Below, one piece after another: positions 7,097 to 57,178 of a stretch of 64,000 nt of DNA; position 1 is the stretch's first letter, and every line of letters begins with the position of its first letter. The stretch comes from Metallibacterium scheffleri (GTDB lineage Bacteria; Pseudomonadota; Gammaproteobacteria; Xanthomonadales; Rhodanobacteraceae): NCBI RefSeq assembly GCF_002077135.1, contig NZ_LDOS01000002.1:620001-684000 (forward strand), in the 5' to 3' direction. Both the position numbers and the translations under genes were made by a program. The notes under the pieces are model-generated. The model worked only from the letters and a program-made list of their open reading frames with translations, did not search any database and had not been told where the DNA came from.

Positions 7097-7482
7097 GTTG
7101 CATCCTCCAGAAGTTGATCCAGCCGGCGCAGCACGCGGCTGGCCGGCAGTTCCAGCTCGCGCGCGGCGCGCGCGAGGTCTTGCAAACGTGGTTCCAGCAG
7201 ACTCATGCGCGCGGCCTCGGGGCGCGCGCGGCGCGCGCTTTTGGCGACCGCCATGCCGGTGCCGCGCAGGCGCTCGAGCAGGCCTTCGCCTTCGAGCAGG
7301 CTGTAGGCGCGCGACACGGTCATCGGGTTGATGGCGTGGAAGCCGGCCACCTCGCGCACCGAGGGCAGCAGCTCGCCCGGCGGCAGTTGTCCGCCGGCGA
7401 TCATGCGGCGCACCTGCTCGACGATCTGGCGGTAGATCGGTTCGGGCGCGCCGGGGGCGATGGTCAGCAATGAGGCATCCAT
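7093..7482 (-). CDS. GntR-family repressor, YtrA subfamily
   Basis: About 129 residues. The winged-helix domain fills residues 12-80 (PIYRQIVEQVRRMI, then PSVREVAGFHAINPMTVSRAY), followed by a short C-terminal helical tail without a large ligand domain, the hallmark of the YtrA subfamily. The ATG at 7482 lies inside a palindromic operator and close to the predicted transcript start, so it would be translated from a leaderless message; an in-frame ATG at 7506 would add eight residues but lies within the promoter. The gene autoregulates with the ABC transporter that follows, by analogy with YtrA regulators that respond to cell-wall antibiotics. Confidence 0.88.
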   Translation of the reverse strand: MDASLLTIAPGAPEPIYRQIVEQVRRMIAGGQLPPGELLPSVREVAGFHAINPMTVSRAYSLLEGEGLLERLRGTGMAVAKSARRARPEAARMSLLEPRLQDLARAARELELPASRVLRRLDQLLEDAT

Positions 7483-7688: not shown

Positions 7689-9650
<1,962 letters not shown>

Positions 9651-9722
9651 CTTGTTAACGTAGACTGGCATTCGTTTTAACAGTGCGCGGCGTTATTGAC
9701 GGCTGCGCGAACAGGCGACGCG

Positions 9723-10886
9723 ATGCAGCGAGGACCGACCGGACGCTACGAAGTCACCACCACGGCCGGCGAGACCGTGCGCGCGTTCGTGCCCGCGCCG
9801 CTGCCGCCGGTGCCGCCGCTGGACCTGGCCGGCGCGCGCCAGCGGCGACTGGAACAGGCCCTGCTGGCCTGCGGGCGCCTCGATGCCGTCACCGCGCTGC
9901 TGCCCGAGCCCGATCTGTTCTTGTACGCCTACGTGCGCCGCGAAGCCGTGCTGTCCTCGCAGATCGAGGGCACGCAATCGTCGCTGTCCGATCTGCTGCT
10001 GTTCGAGCTCGACGAGGCGCCGGGGGTGCCCTTCGATGACGTGGTGGAGGTGTCCAACTACGTCGCCGCGCTGGAGCACGGTCTGGCGCGCCTGCGCGAG
10101 GGCTTCCCGCTGTCCAACCGCCTGCTGCGCGAAGTGCACGGCAAGCTGCTCGCGCGCGGGCGCGGCGCCGACAAGCTGCCGGGCGAATTCCGCCGCTCGC
10201 AAAACTGGATCGGCGGCACGCGTCCCGGCAATGCCCGCCACGTGCCGCCACCCGCGCAGGACATCGCCAACTGCATGGCGGCGCTGGAGCGCTTCATCCA
10301 CGCCGAGGCCGATGGCCTGCCCATCCTCGTCAAGGCCGCGCTGGCGCACGTGCAATTTGAAACCATCCATCCCTTTCTCGACGGCAACGGGCGCGTCGGG
10401 CGCCTGCTGATCGCGCTGATGCTGGCCGATGCCGGCGTGCTCGCGCAGCCGCTGCTGTACCTGAGCCTGTACTTCAAGCAGCACCGCGCCGAGTACTACC
10501 GCCAGCTCGATGCCGTGCGCCGCGACGGCGACTGGGAAGCCTGGGTGGATTTTTTCCTCGAAGGCGTGGGGCAAACCGCCGCCGGCGCCGTGGACACCGC
10601 GCACCGGCTGCTGGCCCTGTTTGCCGACGATGCCGCGAAAGCGCGCGACCTCGGCCGCGCCGCCGCCAACACCTTGCGCGTGTTCGACGCGCTGCGCGCG
10701 CGGCCCATCGCCTCCATCAACGACCTCAGCCGCCGCACCGCGGTGAGCTATCCCACCGTGGCCCGCGCCATCGAGGCACTGGCCGCGCTGGGTATCGTGC
10801 GCGAGCTCACCGGCCGCAAGCGCGACCGCGTGTTCGCCTACGACCGCTATCTGGCCGTGCTCAACGAAGGCGCGGAGCCGCTGTGA
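9723..10886 (+). CDS. Fic/DOC-family protein with N-terminal inhibitory helix
   Basis: 387 residues. The catalytic Fic motif HPFLDGNGRVGR lies near residue 215. The self-inhibitory motif is SQIEGT near residue 78, and a Fic_N domain precedes the Fic core. The C-terminal 90 residues carry a winged helix (LSRRTAVSYPTVARAIEAL), so it may bind its own promoter. Fic enzymes AMPylate proteins; the intact inhibitory motif suggests the resting form is autoinhibited (class II). It lies between hsdM and hsdS, a frequent place for Fic genes in type I loci. I chose the ATG at 9723 over a TTG at 9696. The upstream stretch 9650-9690 is locally AT-rich (TTGTTAACG ... CGTTTTAACA) and may hold a promoter. Confidence 0.9.
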   Translation: MQRGPTGRYEVTTTAGETVRAFVPAPLPPVPPLDLAGARQRRLEQALLACGRLDAVTALLPEPDLFLYAYVRREAVLSSQIEGTQSSLSDLLLFELDEAPGVPFDDVVEVSNYVAALEHGLARLREGFPLSNRLLREVHGKLLARGRGADKLPGEFRRSQNWIGGTRPGNARHVPPPAQDIANCMAALERFIHAEADGLPILVKAALAHVQFETIHPFLDGNGRVGRLLIALMLADAGVLAQPLLYLSLYFKQHRAEYYRQLDAVRRDGDWEAWVDFFLEGVGQTAAGAVDTAHRLLALFADDAAKARDLGRAAANTLRVFDALRARPIASINDLSRRTAVSYPTVARAIEALAALGIVRELTGRKRDRVFAYDRYLAVLNEGAEPL

Positions 10887-11009
10887 GCGCCATGCTGCCG
10901 GCCCGTGGTAGCGAGCGTCGCGCGCGCAGTGCAGCGGTTGCTGCCGCCCGCCATGAGCAGCAGGCGCATGGCGCATGGCGGGTCGCTGCGAAACAGGGGG
11001 AGATTGGGT

Positions 11010-12319
<1,310 letters not shown>

Positions 12320-12323
<4 letters not shown>

Positions 12324-13000
12324 GCTGGTACGTGAGCACCACTTTTTGGACTGGCGCCGCCGCGGTCTTTACCGCGGTGATGGCAGGGTTCACAGGTTGG
12401 TCAGTTGTGGCGAGTCAGAGGCAACAGCGCAGGGCGCTGCAACAGAGCGAACAACATCATCAGGATGGCTTTCGGCCCGTGCTCGTGCTCGCGCCTTCAG
12501 ACGATGCTATTCCATTGGATCGATCCAAGCTTCTGAAGCTTGTTCCGACCAATTCGGGTGCAACCGAGCGCACGTACATCATCGCCTGTTTGCTCACCAA
12601 CATCGGCGTTGGTCCAGCGCTGAACGTGCACTTGCTGCTTCGCATGAGGGGAATCGACGGGTACGGCATCAGCCGCGAGCTCACCCCGGTTTCCGCCGGT
12701 TTGTTGGGAAGCAGGGGCGAATCAGACGGCAGCATTCGGGTGACATTTAAACCGCACGACGGTTTCAATGACGTGGACGTGCAGCTTTCCACGGGTGATC
12801 CGTGGGAGCTACTGCTTGAGTACGAGGACGTGTTCGGCAACCGCTTTCATACGATCCACAGCAAAATCCCGTTGCAGCCGTGGACGGTGTGCGGCAAGGG
12901 ACCGGCACCGCTTGGAGTCGATCCTGCTGTGGCCAATGAGAGGTTGCGCGCTACAAGCGCAGGCCTCAGCGATCATCGCGATGACACTGGTTATCCATGA
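12320..13000 (+). CDS. hypothetical protein with one N-terminal membrane segment
   Basis: 226 residues, ATG overlapping the hsdS stop (ATGA). One hydrophobic segment (FWTGAAAVFTAVMAGFTGW, about residues 9-27) is followed by a charged Gln/Arg stretch and a beta-rich soluble part (LLTNIGVGPALNVHLLLR, VTFKPHDGFNDVDVQL). Small proteins of this plan (TM, coiled stretch, beta sandwich) are common as passengers of defence loci, but I know no function. Codon use is less GC-extreme than in the flanking core genes. Confidence 0.75.
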
Positions 13001-13088
13001 GGTGCGCGAAGGAGCCGAACAGGTTTCGGAGCGTGATCCTGGGCGCGCGCGTGATCAAGCAGCACGACATCATGCCGATAGTCGCATC

Positions 13089-13328
13089 GACTCGGTGATG
13101 ACGCACGATAGCCAGCGACAGCATCTGTTCGGCGCGGAGCTTGCCGTTCCGCCGACGGCATGGGCGCATGCGGTGGATGTCGTCATTGCCCCTATGATTG
13201 ACAACATCGGGCGACCGGGCATGCAGTTCCGTACTCGCGCCGCTTTCCGCGACGCCCTGTTGCGCAAGCTCGCCTCCGGCGCGTTCCGGGTAGAACACTC
13301 CGAAGATCCGATTGAGGAATCGCCATGA
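13089..13328 (+). pseudogene. remnant of a second hsdS 3' end
   Basis: About 79 codons whose reading frame matches the C-terminus of the intact HsdS: LAVPPTAWAHAVDVVIAP against LAVPPMALLRAADLVMAP, then MIDNIG.. against MIDDIW.., and ALLRKLASGAFRV against TLLPKLISGELRV. No start codon with a ribosome site and no recognition domain precede it; upstream the frame runs into unrelated sequence. It appears to be the tail of a deleted hsdS allele, left over from exchange or duplication. Its TGA overlaps the ATG region of the AAA ATPase gene. Confidence 0.7.
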
Positions 13329-14566
13329 CCAGCCCGCAGGCACGGCGCCATGCGCCGGCGCGCATCGAATATCTCAAGGTGCAGAACTTCCGCGCGTTGC
13401 GCGAGGTGGAGTTCAAGGACCTCACGCCGCTCACCGTGCTGCTGGGGCCCAACGGCAGCGGCAAGTCCACGGTGTTCGACGTGTTCGCGTTTCTGGCCGA
13501 ATGCTTCGAGATGGGCCTGCGTCGCGCCTGGGACAAACGCGGGCGCGCCAAGGAGCTCAGGACACGTGGATGCGACGGGCCAGTATCCATTGAGATCAAG
13601 TACCGTGAGCCCAGCTATCCGCTGATTACCTATCACCTTGCCGTCGATGAGCGCAACGGCGCCCCAGTAGTGGTTGAGGAGTGGCTGCGCTGGAAACGCG
13701 GCAGTCACGGGCAACCCTTCCGTTTTCTCGATTACCACGAGGGCCATGGCCGAGCCGTCAGCGGTGATCTGCCGGACGAGCAGGATCGCCGTGTCGAGGT
13801 TCCGCTCAAATCCGCCGACCTGCTCGCGGTCAACGCGCTCGGCCAGTTTGCCGAGCATCCGCGTGTGGCCGCGCTGCGCGAGTTCATCACCGGCTGGCAT
13901 GTGTCCTACCTCTCGGCGGAGAGCGCGCGCGGCCAACCCGAAGCCGGACCGCAGGAACGATTGACCAAAACCGGGGACAACATCGCCAATGTCATCCAGT
14001 ACCTCGCTGAGCGCTACCCCGCACGGCTGGATGAGATTTTCGCCGTGTTGCGGCAGCGCGTGCCGCGCATCGAGCGTGTGCTGGCCGAAACCATGCCCGA
14101 CGGTCGCCTGCTGTTGCAGATCAAGGATGCGCCCTTCAGCCATCCCGTGCTGGCCAAGTTCGCCTCCGACGGCACGCTGAAGATGCTGGCCTATCTCGTG
14201 CTGCTCTACGACCCGACCCCGCCGCCTTTCATCGGTATCGAGGAGCCGGAAAATTTCCTGCATCCGCGCCTGCTGCCGGAACTCGCCGAAGAGTGCCGTG
14301 CCGCCAGCGAGCGCACGCAGTTGCTGGTCACGACCCATTCGCCGTTTTTTCTCAATGCCCTGCGAGCGGAGGAAGTGCGCGTGCTCTGGCGCGACGAGCA
14401 TGGCTATACCCAGACGCAGCGTGCTGCGGATTTGCAGGGCGTGCCCGAGTTTGTCGAACACGGCGCCCAGCTGGGACAACTGTGGATGGAGGGCCAGCTC
14501 GGCGTCGGCGATCCGCTGGTCAACCAGGGGGCGCCGGCGCGCGTATTGCGGGGGCGGGGCCGATGA
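13325..14566 (+). CDS. AAA ATPase of the RecF/OLD/AAA_21 type (defence-associated)
   Basis: 413 residues. Walker A is [11 protein letters not shown] (about residue 40). The signature-like region is [14 protein letters not shown], Walker B-type [13 protein letters not shown], and the histidine switch [12 protein letters not shown]. There is no long coiled coil, so it is a compact SMC-like ATPase. GAGGAA precedes the ATG at 13325. It overlaps the next gene (DUF4276, TOPRIM-like) by ATGA, and that gene overlaps an Mrr-type nuclease. ATPase plus TOPRIM-like pairs (RloA/RloB, AbiL-like, PARIS-like) are known abortive-infection or anti-phage modules; equivalence to any one of them is inference. Confidence 0.9.
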
Positions 14567-15180
14567 CGGCGCAGCATATGGAGCTGTTGGTGGAGGAGCC
14601 GTCGATGGAGGCGTTTCTGCGTGAGCTGCTGCCGCGGATCATACCAGCGGGCCGCACCTTCGATATCCACGCGTTCCAGGGCAAGCCCGACCTGCTCGGC
14701 AAGCTCGAGTCGCGGCTTCGAGGGTATGCCCACTGGTTGCCCGAGGATTGGCGCCTGATCGTCGTTGTTGATCGCGATGGAGACGATTGCAGGAAGCTGA
14801 AGCGGCGCATGGAGGCCATGGCGGTGACCGCAGGGCTGAAGAGCCGCTCGCAAGCGCGAAGCCATCGCTGGCAAATCGTCAATCGCATCGCGGTCGAAGA
14901 GCTCGAAGCCTGGTATTTCGGCGACTGGGAGGCCGTGCGCAACGCTTATCCGCGCGTGTCGCCGAACGTATCCGGCAAGCAGGGATTTCGCGATCCTGAT
15001 GCCGTGGCTGGCGGCACGTGGCAGGCCTTCGAGCGCATCCTGAAGCAACACGGCTACTTCCAGACAGGACTGCGCAAAGTAGAGGCGGCGAGAGCCTTGG
15101 GCGCGCGGATCGATCCGCAACGGAATCGGTCGCGGAGCTTCATGCGGTTCCATGAGGCCATTCTCGAGGCCATCGCATGA
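14563..15180 (+). CDS. DUF4276-family TOPRIM-like protein
   Basis: 205 residues from the ATG at 14563, which overlaps the ATPase stop; an ATG at 14578 is an alternative. The N-terminal [17 protein letters not shown] carries the single glutamate expected of a TOPRIM fold, and [12 protein letters not shown] supplies the DxD metal motif. [17 protein letters not shown] is a landmark of the DUF4276 family. The probable role is the nuclease or effector partner of the ATPase, which would act as sensor or clamp. Its stop overlaps the ATG of the Mrr-like gene, placing all three in one coupled operon. Confidence 0.85.
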
Positions 15181-16148
15181 CCAACGTCTGGTGCGTCCGC
15201 GCAGAGTTCGGGACCTATGCGAAACACTTCGTCGAAGGCGCGTATGTCGCGATCGGATGGATTCCCAAGGTCGACCTGTCAGGCATCAAGGCCCGAGACC
15301 AGCTCCAACCGATCTACCGGGCGGAACATCCCGAGGACACCAGCAACATCGTGATCGGACAGCAGGTGGGTCAGATCGCCCGATTCCTGCTTGAGATCCA
15401 CGCAGGCGACTACGTGATCACCCCCGCAGCCGATACCGAGTGGCTGCACTATGGCGTGATTGACGCCGATCCATCGTATGTCTATGCGGCGGGAGATGAC
15501 GGCTGCCCGTACCGGCATCGACGACGTGTGGTGTGGGCCAAGGAGCGGCTCAAGAGGGGCCACTTCTCGGTACCGTTTCAGAACACGATCCGATCATCGT
15601 TGACCGTGTTCGCAGTGGCCCAACGGGACGAATTCCTGGCTGCGGTTGGTCGCGCGGATCTCGCGCCGGCCCCGCGAGAAACTTCCTACGACCCCTATCG
15701 TGTCGTGTTGGAGCAGGTTCTGGAGCTCGACCCCAAGGAGTTTGAAATCCTCGTGGGACATCTGCTCACCGCGCTGGGATTCGAAGGCTCTGAGGTCGTC
15801 GGCAAGACCGGCGATGGTGGTGTGGATGCTACTGGCGAGCTCAATGTCGCTGGCCTCGCCAAGGTGAAGGTCTTCGTCCAAGCCAAGCGCTACAAGCTCG
15901 GCTCGAAGATCAACGCCAATGTGGTCAAGCAGCTTCGGCAGGCGATTCCTTTCGGAGGGCAGGGAGCCTTCATCACGACCGCGGACTACCAGGTCGCGGC
16001 GAGCGACGTCGCGCTCGAGCCGGGATTTCCACGCATCGGCCTGATCAACGGTCGGCAGCTCGTGGACCTCTTGATCGAACATTGGGGTGACATTCCACCG
16101 GAGTTCCGGGAGCGCCTGGGGCTCAAACCTGGACTGGTCAGGGTCTGA
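15177..16148 (+). CDS. Mrr-family restriction endonuclease with an N-terminal EVE-like domain
   Basis: 323 residues. The C-terminal half (about 185-310) is Mrr_cat: FEILVGHLLTALGFEG, then GKTGDGGVDATG (catalytic Asp) and VFVQAKRYK (Q-x-K), the PD-(D/E)xK core of the Mrr group. The N-terminal 150 residues (WCVRAEFGTYAKHFVEG; GDYVITPAADTEWLHYGVI) look like an EVE/PUA-type modified-base reader, as in other type IV enzymes; this is inferred from pattern, not proven. The ATG overlaps the previous stop by four bases. It likely cuts modified or foreign DNA and may be the effector or an accessory of the upstream pair. Confidence 0.88.
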   Translation: MTNVWCVRAEFGTYAKHFVEGAYVAIGWIPKVDLSGIKARDQLQPIYRAEHPEDTSNIVIGQQVGQIARFLLEIHAGDYVITPAADTEWLHYGVIDADPSYVYAAGDDGCPYRHRRRVVWAKERLKRGHFSVPFQNTIRSSLTVFAVAQRDEFLAAVGRADLAPAPRETSYDPYRVVLEQVLELDPKEFEILVGHLLTALGFEGSEVVGKTGDGGVDATGELNVAGLAKVKVFVQAKRYKLGSKINANVVKQLRQAIPFGGQGAFITTADYQVAASDVALEPGFPRIGLINGRQLVDLLIEHWGDIPPEFRERLGLKPGLVRV

Positions 16149-16154
16149 GGCATG

Positions 16155-16177
16155 CCATGACCCGCGGCCTCAGCGAA
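16155..16177. repeat. 23-bp duplicate of the hsdR start (left flank of the DUF4143 gene)
   Basis: Identical to 17481-17503, which covers the hsdR ATG and its first codons. Here the copy contains an ATG but runs out of frame and ends in unrelated sequence after AGCGAA. Nearby, a 14-bp direct repeat (CTTGCAATCAGCCG at 16197-16210 and 16220-16233) suggests further rearrangement. Confidence 0.85.
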
Positions 16178-16253
16178 TCCAATCGGTCGCGCTCGCCTTG
16201 CAATCAGCCGTACCCCAAGCTTGCAATCAGCCGCGTTGCATTGCTCAATATCG

Positions 16254-16282
16254 TGAGTAAAATTACTCAACACATTGAGTAA
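16254..16282. promoter_or_regulatory. triple TGAGTAA site upstream of the DUF4143 ATPase
   Basis: TGAGTAA-AA-TTACTCA (16254-16269) is followed by TTGAGTAA (16275-16282), so the three half-sites form two adjacent inverted repeats; the second is TTACTCAA-CACA-TTGAGTAA. It ends eight bases before the ATG at 16290 and is AT-rich in a GC-rich region. It is probably an operator or core promoter of the ATPase gene; the binding protein is unknown. Confidence 0.65.
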
Positions 16283-16289
16283 TTCGTCG

Positions 16290-17482
16290 ATGGCCTATCA
16301 ACGCCCGCAAGCCGCCACGCTCGCCGAACGCCTCGCGGAGCCGCGCCGCTTCGTGCAGGTGGTGGCGGGACCGCGCCAGGTCGGCAAGACCACGCTGGTG
16401 CAGGCGGTGGTCGAGAGCGCGGGCATGGCGCATCGCTTTGCCAGCGCCGACGAGCCGACGCTGCGCGGTCCGGCGTGGATCACCCAGCAGTGGGACGCGA
16501 CGCGACTGCTCGCCGCCGAGGCCGGCAAGCCCGGTGCGGTGCTGGTGCTGGACGAGATCCAGAAGATCCCCGGCTGGTCGGAGACGGTCAAGCGCCTGTG
16601 GGACGAGGACACGCGCAAGCGGCGCCCGCTGCGCGTGGTGCTGCTGGGTTCGGCGCCGCTGCTGATCGCGCAGGGCCTGACCGAGAGTCTGGCCGGACGC
16701 TTCGAGCTGCTGCACCTGCCGCACTGGTCGTATGCCGAGATGCGCGCGGCGTTCGGCTGGTCGCTGGATCAGTATCTGTTTTACGGTGGCTATCCAGGCG
16801 CGGCGCCGCTGATCCGTCAGCCGCGGCGCTGGACGCGCTACGTCGTGGATGCGCTGATCGAAACCTCGATCGCGCGCGACGTGCTGCTGCTCAGCCGCGT
16901 GGACAAGCCGGCGCTGCTGCGGCGCCTGTTCGAGCTGGCCTGCCGCTACTCCGGGCAGATCCTGTCGTACACCAAGATGCTGGGGCAGCTGCAGGACGCC
17001 GGCAACGCCACCACGCTGGCGCATTACCTCGATCTGCTGGCGGGCGCGGGCATGGTCTGCGGCTTGCAGAAATACGCCGGCGATGCGGCGCGCCAGCGCG
17101 GCTCCAGCCCCAAGCTGCAGGTGTTCAACACGGCGCTGCTGAGCGCGACTTCGGGACTATCCTTGGCCGAGGCGCGCGCCGATCCCGAGTTCTGGGGGCG
17201 GCTGGTGGAATCGGCGGTGGGCGCGCACCTGGCCAATGCCGCCGCGGGCGGCGAGATCGCCCTTTACTACTGGCGCGAGCGCAACCAGGAGGTGGATTTC
17301 GTGCTGACCTCGGGGCGCCGACTGATCGCGATCGAGGTCAAGAGCGGGCGCGCGCCGACCCGACATGTCGGCAGCGCCGCCTTTGCGGCGGCATTCAAGC
17401 CGCGGCGCAGCCTGCTGGTGGGCGGCGACGGCATCGCGCTCGAGGACTTCCTCGCCCGGCCCGTCAGTCACTGGACCGCACC

Positions 17483-17486
<4 letters not shown>
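16290..17486 (+). CDS. DUF4143-family AAA ATPase
   Basis: 398 residues. An N-terminal P-loop ([17 protein letters not shown]) and Walker B ([15 protein letters not shown]) belong to the ATPase domain, and the C-terminal DUF4143 part ends in a nuclease-like D-(x)n-E-x-K pattern (QEVDFVL, then IAIEVKSGR). Such proteins are widespread, often near mobile or defence loci, with no settled function. The gene is bounded by a 23-bp direct repeat that duplicates the hsdR 5' end, so it looks like a late insertion between the Mrr gene and hsdR. The TGA overlaps the hsdR ATG region by four bases. Confidence 0.9.
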
Positions 17487-20635
<3,149 letters not shown>

Positions 20636-27950: not shown

Positions 27951-28240
27951 GCGCGTTGATGATCGGCCGCGGGCCGATCATGCGCCGCCGAACGCCCGAG
28001 CGCTGCGCGCGAGGGCCGGGTCAGCGCGTTGATGATCGGCCGCGGGCCGATCATGCGCCGCCGAACGCCCGAGCGCTGCGCGCGAGGGCCGGGTCAGCGC
28101 GTTGATGATCGGCCGCGGGCCGATCATGCGCCGCCGAACGCCCGAGCGCTGCGCGCGAGGGCCGGGTCAGCGCGTTGATGATCGGCCGCGGGCCGATCAT
28201 GCGCCGCCGAACGCCCGAGCGCTGCGCGCGAGGGCCGGGT
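27951..28240. repeat. four tandem 73-bp repeats with a palindrome in each
   Basis: Units start at 27951, 28024, 28097 and 28170; the first three are identical and the last differs only at its end. Each holds a perfect 10-bp arm hairpin (ATGATCGGCC-GCG-GGCCGATCAT) with two GATC sites. It begins just after the bamC stop. There are no unique spacers, so it is not a CRISPR array. Confidence 0.95.
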
Positions 28241-55309: not shown

Positions 55310-56158
55310 TTGCTCAGCATCATCCTGCCCGCCAAGAACGAGGCGCCGGCGCTGGCCGATCTGCTGCCGCGCCTGCGCGCGGCGCAACCCGTGGCCGAGA
55401 TCCTGGTCATCGACGACGGCTCCACCGACAACACCCGCGCGCTGTGCGCGCAACACGGCGTGGGCTGCCTCGGTTCACCCTATTCAATGGGCAACGGCGC
55501 GGCGATCAAACGCGGCGCGCGCGCGGCGCGCGGTGACGTGCTGGTGTTCATGGATGCCGACGGCCAGCACGATCCGGCCGACATCGAGCGCCTGCTGGCG
55601 CGTCTCGACACCGGCTACGACATGGTCGTCGGCGCGCGCGCCTGGTCCGGCCAGGCCGGGGTCGGGCGCGGCCTGGCCAACAGCTTCTACAACCGCATGG
55701 CCAGTTGGATGACCGGGCACAAGGTGCTGGACCTGACCAGCGGCTTCCGCGCCGTGCGCGCGGACAAGTTTCGCGAGTTCCTGCACCTGCTGCCGAATGG
55801 ATTCTCGTATCCGACCACCAGCACCATGGCGTTTTTCCGCAGCGCCTATGCGGTGGCCTACGAGCCCATCGCCGTGGCCAAACGCGTCGGCAAGAGCCAC
55901 ATCAAACCGCTGCGCGACGGCGTGCGCTTTTTGCTGATCATCTTCAAGATCGCCACGCTGTACTCGCCGCTGAAACTGTTCCTGCCGGTCAGCGCGCTGT
56001 TTTTCGTGCTCGGCCTGATCAACTACCTGCACACCTACATCGACACCGGCCGCCTGACCAACATGAGCACGCTGCTGTGGAGCGCCGCGGTCATCGTGTT
56101 CCTGATCGGGCTGATCTCCGAGCAGATCACCAACCTGACGTACAAGCGCGAGGGGTGA
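55310..56158 (+). CDS. family 2 glycosyltransferase with C-terminal membrane pair (polyprenyl-phosphate type)
   Basis: 282 residues from a TTG at 55310; no better start fits. ILPAKNEAPALADLLP, VIDDGSTDNT and VFMDADGQHDP (DxD) are the GT-A fold of DPM1/GtrB-like enzymes. Two membrane helices close the protein (LFLPVSALFFVLGLINYL; LLWSAAVIVFLIGLIS). It likely charges undecaprenyl phosphate with a sugar for surface polysaccharide. Its last 200 bases are repeated 1,020 bases downstream. Confidence 0.85.
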   Translation: MLSIILPAKNEAPALADLLPRLRAAQPVAEILVIDDGSTDNTRALCAQHGVGCLGSPYSMGNGAAIKRGARAARGDVLVFMDADGQHDPADIERLLARLDTGYDMVVGARAWSGQAGVGRGLANSFYNRMASWMTGHKVLDLTSGFRAVRADKFREFLHLLPNGFSYPTTSTMAFFRSAYAVAYEPIAVAKRVGKSHIKPLRDGVRFLLIIFKIATLYSPLKLFLPVSALFFVLGLINYLHTYIDTGRLTNMSTLLWSAAVIVFLIGLISEQITNLTYKREG

Positions 56159-56944: not shown

Positions 56945-57178
56945 ATGAACATCGCCACCGGCAAACCGGGCCTGTTGCTGTACTCGCCGCTGAAGCTGTT
57001 CCTGCCGGTCAGCGCGCTGTTTTTCGTGCTCGGTCTGATCAACTACCTGCACACCTACATCGACACCGGCCGCCTGACCAACATGAGCACGCTGCTGTGG
57101 AGCGCCGCGGTCATCGTGTTCTTGATCGGGCTGATCTCCGAGCAGATCACCAACCTGACGTATCGGCGCGATGCGTGA
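56945..57178 (+). pseudogene. duplicated 3' end of the glycosyltransferase gene
   Basis: 77 codons. From about 56978 the DNA matches 55958-56158 nearly base for base, only a few third-position changes before the tails diverge (KREG against RRDA). It encodes just the two C-terminal membrane helices; the catalytic domain is missing. An ATG at 56945 could still express a small membrane protein. Confidence 0.85.

Follow-up and report, generated by a model that had tools for sequence, protein, structure and literature searches.

We analyzed a 64,000-nucleotide stretch of the Metallibacterium scheffleri genome (contig NZ_LDOS01000002.1, positions 620,001 to 684,000; hereafter the window), in which a gene encoding a DUF4143 protein lies immediately before hsdR, the restriction subunit gene of a type I restriction-modification locus, and in which the first bases of hsdR occur a second time upstream of the DUF4143 gene. 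All genes and gene remnants of this locus are read on the forward strand. The genes for the methyltransferase subunit (hsdM, 7689–9650; Pfam N6_Mtase and HsdM_N), the resident specificity subunit (hsdS, 10905–12323; Methylase_S) and the restriction subunit (hsdR, 17483–20635; HSDR_N, SWI2_SNF2 and T1RH-like_C; NCBIfam TIGR00348) are all open and stand in a row on one strand, as in a type I locus. A Fic/DOC family protein (Fic_N and Fic, 9717–10886) is encoded between hsdM and hsdS, and a 226-residue open reading frame (ORF, 12320–13000), which overlaps hsdS by ATGA, had no match in Pfam (E 0.001) or PADLOC (E 0.01). Inside hsdS, a short sequence at 11569–11660 recurs at many places in G009 and other genomes of the genus (G and L numbers denote the genomes and loci compared) and appears to be a dispersed repeat read as coding; it contains a 23-nt tandem copy (11589/11613).

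Further along the hsdS-hsdR interval, a segment resembling the tail of hsdS (13112–13328; seen by tblastn, DNA alignment and reading frame) is followed by genes for an AAA_21 ATPase (13325–14566), a DUF4276 protein (14563–15180) and a Mrr-type restriction endonuclease (Mrr_cat, 15177–16148), together called the Mrr block below. Behind them come the first repeat copy (16155–16180), a junction zone recognized by comparing flanks among relatives (16181–16229), a promoter/operator-like element (16236–16282), the DUF4143 gene (16290–17486), whose product has AAA+, winged-helix-like and PD-(D/E)XK-like parts, and the second repeat copy (17481–17506) at the start of hsdR. All three cargo types match PADLOC candidates, with HEC-01A as the best model for the AAA_21 ATPase, HEC-01B for the DUF4276 protein, PDC-S02 for Mrr and PDC-S01 for the DUF4143 protein, although PADLOC and Pfam names state what the members of a family are called and not what they do. 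Pfam confirmed the identities that a sequence-only reading of this DNA had given to the ATPase (AAA_14 and DUF4143), the type I HsdR and the Mrr_cat protein, and no transposase was present among the nine proteins scanned between 7689 and 20635, as that reading had noted.

The 23-mers at 16155–16177 and 17481–17503 are identical letter for letter, and when the copies are extended to 26 nt, 25 of the 26 bases agree. The window holds no third match with up to three mismatches, and none was expected from 100 dinucleotide-preserving shuffles. Because the repeat is exact, unique in the window and not expected from the shuffles, a chance origin was rejected. Exact direct repeats of at least 20 nt form seven runs in the window when the first two places of each word are considered. 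Elsewhere in the window, a tandem array of roughly 73-bp units lies at 27951–28166, with a copy number that is apparently different in a genome of the same genus (G012, L037), and two stretches 1020 bp apart, 55976–56142 and 56996–57162, share long exact runs of 87, 40 and 38 nt in direct orientation.

The second copy contains the hsdR ATG (17483–17485), which overlaps the DUF4143 stop codon TGA (17484–17486). The first copy had been said to follow the Mrr gene directly; it lies close behind, six bases (16149–16154) after the Mrr stop codon (16146–16148). It begins with CC, and from its own ATG (16157–16159) it gives hsdR codons 1 to 7 exactly and codon 8 with one change. Judged from its letters and position, the first copy is most likely the start of an hsdR since lost, placed as if it had followed Mrr directly.

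A comparable remnant lies on the far side of the Mrr block. The segment 13113–13316 encodes 68 residues with 54% identity to residues 402–469 of the resident hsdS product (tblastn E 4.1e-15), and in the DNA alignment 12107–12276 pairs with 13112–13281. The stop codon of this frame (13326–13328) overlaps the AAA_21 start by ATGA, as between native operon neighbours, and ATGA overlaps also join the genes inside the block. The AAA_21, DUF4276 and Mrr genes (13325–16148) are therefore flanked by two stumps, an hsdS tail on the left and an hsdR head on the right. Because of the hsdS stump at the far end and its overlap with AAA_21, the block from hsdS tail to hsdR head reads as a piece cut out of a different type I locus across its hsdS-hsdR interval. 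The G+C content of the block is 61–65%, versus 69–71% in hsdM, Fic, DUF4143 and hsdR.

The DUF4143-hsdR junction occurs in relatives as well. In G009 the DUF4143 gene (94% identical to that of the window) is joined by ATGA to an hsdR (93%) with neither a Mrr gene nor an upstream copy of the hsdR head, and two other genes stand in place of the Mrr block. G012 has the same junction (98% and 97%), but with a contig whose first base corresponds to 16195 of the window it is uninformative on the duplication and on an upstream Mrr gene. More diverged hsdR genes follow DUF4143 in L083 (71% identity), L093 (70%) and L087 (56%), and a second hsdR type does so in L082, L090, L092 and L097. In all, 13 of 94 loci, which include loci from other searches, have an hsdR or a fragment of it downstream of DUF4143, 77 have none (among them L078, whose 34-nt hsdR head was seen by eye) and four were too short. 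Ten of these hsdR genes are near full length, and in nine the in-frame ATG or GTG nearest the DUF4143 stop, which our script took as the start, overlaps DUF4143 by four bases; in the exception, L087, hsdR starts 28 bases after the stop. Because the junction occurs without Mrr in G009 and before diverged hsdR genes, the DUF4143-hsdR pair looks old.

These results bear on the origin first proposed for the repeat, namely that DUF4143, as a small mobile unit, entered a Mrr-hsdR operon where hsdR begins, with duplication of 23 bp of the target. That proposal was right in taking the first copy for an hsdR head that fits behind Mrr, but DUF4143 as the newcomer is not supported: G009 has the gene without the duplication, a finding that the proposal itself had named as refuting it, and such an insertion would leave the hsdS stump on the left of the block unexplained. 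The exact 23-nt repeat at both ends of the module (16155 and 17481), its right end at the DUF4143 stop and its left end near the operator-like element all agree with a mobile unit; the repeat is nevertheless absent in G009. A site with a single copy in a relative was not found in the searches made, which covered Mrr in 233 genomes of the family, the flanks of the DUF4143 gene in G099 and those of a T. oshimai plasmid. When the G099 flanks were compared with 39 genomes, relatives shared the left flank only (five loci inspected). The T. oshimai DUF4143 gene lies among ABC-transporter genes, and its flanks were not side by side in two other Thermus plasmid records inspected; the DUF4143 genes of T. 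thermophilus belong to a distant subfamily near insertion sequences. Eight records of a phage collection held DUF4143 relatives (best 48.6% identity), and viral contigs held one (50%).

Duplicated flanks were also looked for at other DUF4143 genes. A scan for relatives had kept 80 of 195 loci at 60–98% identity, with record titles spanning many phyla. Direct repeats of at least 30 bits within 300 bp on either side were found at 11 of 84 DUF4143 genes and at 4 of 225 control ORFs (Fisher p=1.8e-4). The excess persisted without the window, which had been chosen for having a repeat (10/83 vs 4/225, p=4.9e-4), without the window, L165 and L120 (8/81 vs 4/225, p=3.4e-3), and over six score cut-offs (p from 5.8e-5 to 6.4e-3). 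With 800-bp flanks the counts were 11/87 vs 12/516 at E 1e-6 and 7/87 vs 8/516 at E 1e-10. The controls were other ORFs in the same loci, which are phylogenetically non-independent, and loci with too little flank and duplicate records (L077 and L079, and L160 in the 300-bp test) were left out. Such repeats are thus commoner around DUF4143 than around control ORFs, which speaks for a mobile unit, and so does the truncated head of the downstream gene that lies upstream of DUF4143 in L083 and, by our reading of the frames, in L150.

The repeats themselves are not of one kind. The eleven measure 18 to 154 nt at 75–100% identity; nine are imperfect (75–96%), and the exact ones are in L108 (21 nt) and L134 (18 nt). 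In the window and in L083 they consist of an hsdR head, and in L165 of a short repeated motif; by our reading of the translations they are a methyltransferase-like gene head in L150 and part of a RelE-like gene in L094. The L165 repeat recurs once more in the right flank, and the gene in L160 stands beside a dispersed repeat, a roughly 60-bp element (bases 7192–7253) found many times in genomes of its genus. Because the repeats vary in length and identity and G009 has no duplication, a target duplication of fixed length by DUF4143 is not supported, and repeated splicing near genes fits them better. Weighing both sides, we consider insertion of DUF4143 as a small unit an unlikely origin of the window's repeat. 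L083 shows, independently, the arrangement of the window: behind several cargo genes stand a 144-bp hsdR head stump, DUF4143 and hsdR, in this order; this stump is 75% identical to the intact hsdR of its own locus and, by eye, closer to the L093 allele.

A related possibility is that circular or linear DNA carrying DUF4143 and a short hsdR head integrated through that head, leaving a short left copy and an intact right gene. DUF4143 genes followed by a short hsdR head do exist, with about 34 nt in L078 (by eye; tblastn was silent) and about 80 codons in G006 (L045), and on this route the left copy should not exceed the carried head in length, which 26 nt fits. The L078 and G006 fragments may equally be decayed restriction loci, however, about 26 nt of homology is short for ordinary recombination, and the hsdS stump at about 13112–13328 would again be unexplained, so that we regard this route as quite improbable. 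In L045 (G006:C35) the DUF4143 gene and its hsdR codons lie between 91%-identical stretches of a gene that we read as permease-like (~7947–8026 and ~9712–9789).

Less probable still, and indeed very unlikely in our view, is a local event within one lineage, unrelated to cargo exchange, in which template switching or slippage where hsdR begins placed a 26-nt copy ahead of DUF4143. In its favour, one base in 26 differs between the two copies, while the hsdR starts of close relatives are seen by eye to differ. Yet the copy sits at operon spacing, six bases behind Mrr, in the orientation of a former Mrr-hsdR junction, and a matching hsdS stump at the other end would have to be a coincidence.

We therefore favour, as probable, that the 23-bp repeat is a scar of the mosaic assembly of a type I locus. 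The type I operon would be a mosaic whose hsdS-hsdR interval serves as a cargo slot, and DUF4143 would already have been coupled to the resident hsdR when a segment consisting of hsdS tail, AAA_21, DUF4276, Mrr and hsdR head was spliced between the 226-residue ORF and the DUF4143 promoter region. The hsdR head stump would mark the right end of this segment and the hsdS stump at about 13112–13328 its left end, and the splicing may have proceeded by recombination with non-homologous inner junctions. As to direction, insertion of the Mrr block seems to have a little better than an even chance, and replacement of a complete hsdR by the DUF4143-hsdR side a little less than an even one. Both stumps, the ATGA overlaps inside the block and the DUF4143-hsdR junction in relatives are observed.

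Several points weigh against mosaic assembly. The block is not sharply set apart in composition, for the resident hsdS has 62% G+C and the 226-residue ORF 59%. Neither an unspliced donor (hsdS, AAA_21, DUF4276, Mrr and hsdR in this order) nor an unspliced recipient was found. Mrr matches occurred in 44 of 233 family genomes, the own genome included, with no close relative among them: the best non-self match had 27% identity over the full length, the others 24–39% over full or partial length, apart from one 23-residue piece at 70% in G609. The Mrr matches in 42 plasmid records were all below 60% identity, and among 14 weak Mrr loci inspected from the 43 other genomes none had an hsdR head within 1.5 kb of Mrr; one of them (L174) has a piece of an hsdR tail behind Mrr. 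A DNA search of 13 genomes of the genus with 10900–16300 returned only hsdS pieces, dispersed repeats and the operator end, and the block was absent. With 26 nt and one difference from the resident hsdR, the hsdR stump is too short for an origin in another allele to be shown, and it is possibly a local duplication. Finally, bases 16181–16196 have no explanation in the proposed history.

The use of the hsdS-hsdR interval for cargo is seen in other loci too. At a paralogous locus in the same genome (C5), three ORFs lie in the interval before an hsdR 92–93% identical to that of the window. The slot holds two ORFs and DUF4143 in G009, two ORFs in G011, a 348-residue ORF in G035, a 759-residue ORF (ATPase-like by our own reading) in G041, Fic in G059 and DUF4143 alone in L087. 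The end of contig C5 (G000, base 381487) lies inside a further hsdR copy with 91% DNA identity to that of the window and is possibly an assembly break induced by the repeat.

We also examined the DUF4143 protein itself. Residues 1–395 of its 398 residues match the PADLOC model PDLC04791 (PDC-S01) with E 8.1e-179. An AlphaFold (AF2) model with a mean predicted local distance difference test score of 90.9 shows an AAA+ part, a winged-helix-like region with helices at 207–219, 227–233 and 240–252 and strands at 256–261 and 275–278, and a C-terminal alpha/beta part bearing E-V-D-F and I-E-V-K-S motifs. Among 71 sequences E334, D336 and E349 are invariant and K351 is nearly so. The Pfam matches (AAA_14 and DUF4143), the model and these residues together are those of an AAA+ ATPase fused to a PD-(D/E)XK-type domain, and we take the DUF4143 domain to be of that type (PMC12988326); no fold match of DUF4143 to a nuclease was obtained. 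In VIA-align the top rows for residues 1–289 were the archaeal AAA+ ATPases PABY2304 (2qen; Z 16.8, root-mean-square deviation 3.1, 262 aligned) and SSO1545 (2fna; Z 16.7, 3.4, 263 aligned), which the model resembles in this part, whereas identity is 14% and the C-terminal part lies outside the alignment. The AAA domain of Rubisco activase (6z1d; Z 16.0, 184 aligned) was tied with them within one Z unit, the Foldseek list was dominated by AAA+ proteins, and a profile search against solved structures returned three chains, none with E below 0.05.

Directly before the DUF4143 start, a TGAGTAAAATTACTCA core was found with up to four mismatches in 82 of 89 loci and with at most one in 70, loci with too little upstream sequence being left out of the count; it was not found in L085, L116, L163, L157, L165, L167 and L168. 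Further half-sites lie on both sides of the core, and column conservation starts 18 bp before it and is flat further upstream. The half-site of the window is TGAGTAA, and its four half-sites lie at 16241–16247 (the variant TTGCTCA), 16254–16260, 16263–16269 and 16276–16282. The operator zone held 187 half-sites, against 2 close to the 3' end, 4 within the upstream 700 bp, 6 inside the gene and 24 at greater distance. Because they are almost absent on the 3' side (2 vs 187), the element is not a pair of ends of a mobile element, and this candidate was ruled out. A pattern of three half-sites with up to two mismatches occurred in 79 of 93 loci and nowhere else in those loci. Among 369 genomes of the class it occurred in 12, and at one place in the own genome.

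Eight of these 12 sites precede DUF4143 or a truncated remnant of it (58 codons left in G271 and 21 in G192). The other four are a site cut by a contig end (G275), a solo operator (G238) and two weak sites (G086 and G297) at the level of a reversed-pattern control, which itself gave two. The solo site (L227, G238:C22, 1488–1529), with four half-sites and no accompanying DUF4143 gene, lies close to an hsdR-like frame, about 60 bp from its 3' end, and is possibly what is left of a unit since lost. Together with the truncated remnants, it suggests that loss of the unit occurs too. In a further locus (L160, identical to L116; G099:C19) the DUF4143 gene has an in-frame stop and no recognizable operator.

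The sequence-only reading had also suggested that DUF4143 genes move as small units with a defined flank. A fixed duplicated flank is not seen, with repeats of 18 to 154 nt; the idea of a unit fares better, given the operator and ORF together at 82 of 89 loci, a left edge, and the excess of repeats (11/84 vs 4/225). The window, G009 and G012 agree from about 16197, and for G004 and L078 the agreement with the window begins only near 16230. In G004 the identity is 91.9% over 750 bp, and a tRNA-like sequence, by our own reading, lies upstream. Because the left flanks of window/G009/G012, of G004 and of L078 part at about 16230, just outside the operator, a defined left edge of the unit is partly borne out, and a conserved unit of operator-like element and ORF is partly supported.

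The palindromic sites lie at the presumed promoter, are conserved with the gene and are rare elsewhere, as in an operator-repressor pair. By our own reading the promoter is TTGCAT-16-TAAAAT at 16236, but a strict sigma-70 scan of 15900–16400 gave no promoter. This counts against an autoregulated pair, as does the absence of a site, in the genome scan, from G099 (75% identity, a pseudogene) and from G406 and G218 (about 50%), whose homologues together span 48–75% identity. At the presumed recognition helix (residues 239–250), homologues with TGAGTAA sites nearly all have N-x-[TV]-T-L-A-H-Y or a close variant, and a Collinsella homologue with 44% identity has kept both the helix type and the operator. 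The comparison of helix and operator rests on three exceptions, L165, L167 and L168, which have the helices D-L-V-K-H-Y, D-L-I-K-H-Y and E-I-I-K-H-Y and, at the same place, the half-sites TCTAG, TGATAG and AATTTAATAGG. Three loci do not fit: L157 has an NVTTLAGYL helix with TTTGAGAAT-like sites, in L163 the helix is the usual one but the sites match poorly, and T. oshimai has NTVTLAHYL with partly CTAG-type sites. Taken from the model and the alignments, these patterns are suggestive of a DUF4143 protein that binds its own operator. DUF4143 is most likely a self-regulated candidate defence ATPase/nuclease whose winged-helix region would bind palindromes over its own promoter.

A wider scheme is tentative and on the whole doubtful. 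In it, DUF4143 (PDC-S01) would be an autorepressor as well as a nuclease-ATPase, its place right before hsdR, overlapping by 4 bp, would put the restriction subunit, and not the methylase, under separate control, and the self-sufficient pair of operator and ORF would spread alone and in tow of hsdR heads, leaving stumps of gene heads. If the operator controls hsdR, this bears on how a type I system delays restriction in a new host. A candidate defence family that is very common, but whose function is unproven, also gains a testable mechanism, with an operator that perhaps changes with the recognition helix and a recurrent place before the restriction subunit. At the locus itself, the one-gene insertion first proposed gives way to a readable record of type I cargo swapping, in which hsdS and hsdR stumps mark the splice points.

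Lodging of cargo between hsdS and hsdR has precedents. DarTG2 sits there in the RRDM island, a site called a potential recombination hotspot (PMC12255303), and the type I region of C. jejuni M1 houses rloA and rloB (PMC2928727). The window likewise has AAA_21 and DUF4276, Mrr and DUF4143 lodged between hsdS and hsdR; unlike those loci, it keeps stumps of a second hsdS and a second hsdR on either side of one cargo block. PDC-S01 has been described as a single-gene candidate recognized by its place inside other systems, with an ATPase domain joined to a member of the PD-(D/E)XK superfamily, to which kind DUF4143 belongs, very common and with several cross-domain transfers; the upstream operator and the hsdR coupling seen here go beyond that description and are unmentioned in the accessible part of it (PMC12988326). 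Literature naming DUF4143 includes PMC4406477, and in the sections available of what was found for DUF4143, COG1373, AAA_14, PDC-S01, TTGAGTAA and embedded candidates no operator is mentioned, the TTGAGTAA matches listed having unrelated titles. The operator, its possible co-variation with the recognition helix and the recurrent place before hsdR thus seem to be undescribed. There is a likeness to RptR, in which short palindromes also lie at the promoter of the controlled genes (PMC12255303). RptR is a separate small repressor (79-residue homologues) of TAGCTA sites, encoded first in its island; in the window the half-site reads TGAGTAA, the site precedes DUF4143 and hsdR, and the protein proposed to bind it is the AAA+/winged-helix one itself. 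The proposed control of hsdR by DUF4143, if true, would be comparable in its logic to that of the C proteins of type II systems.
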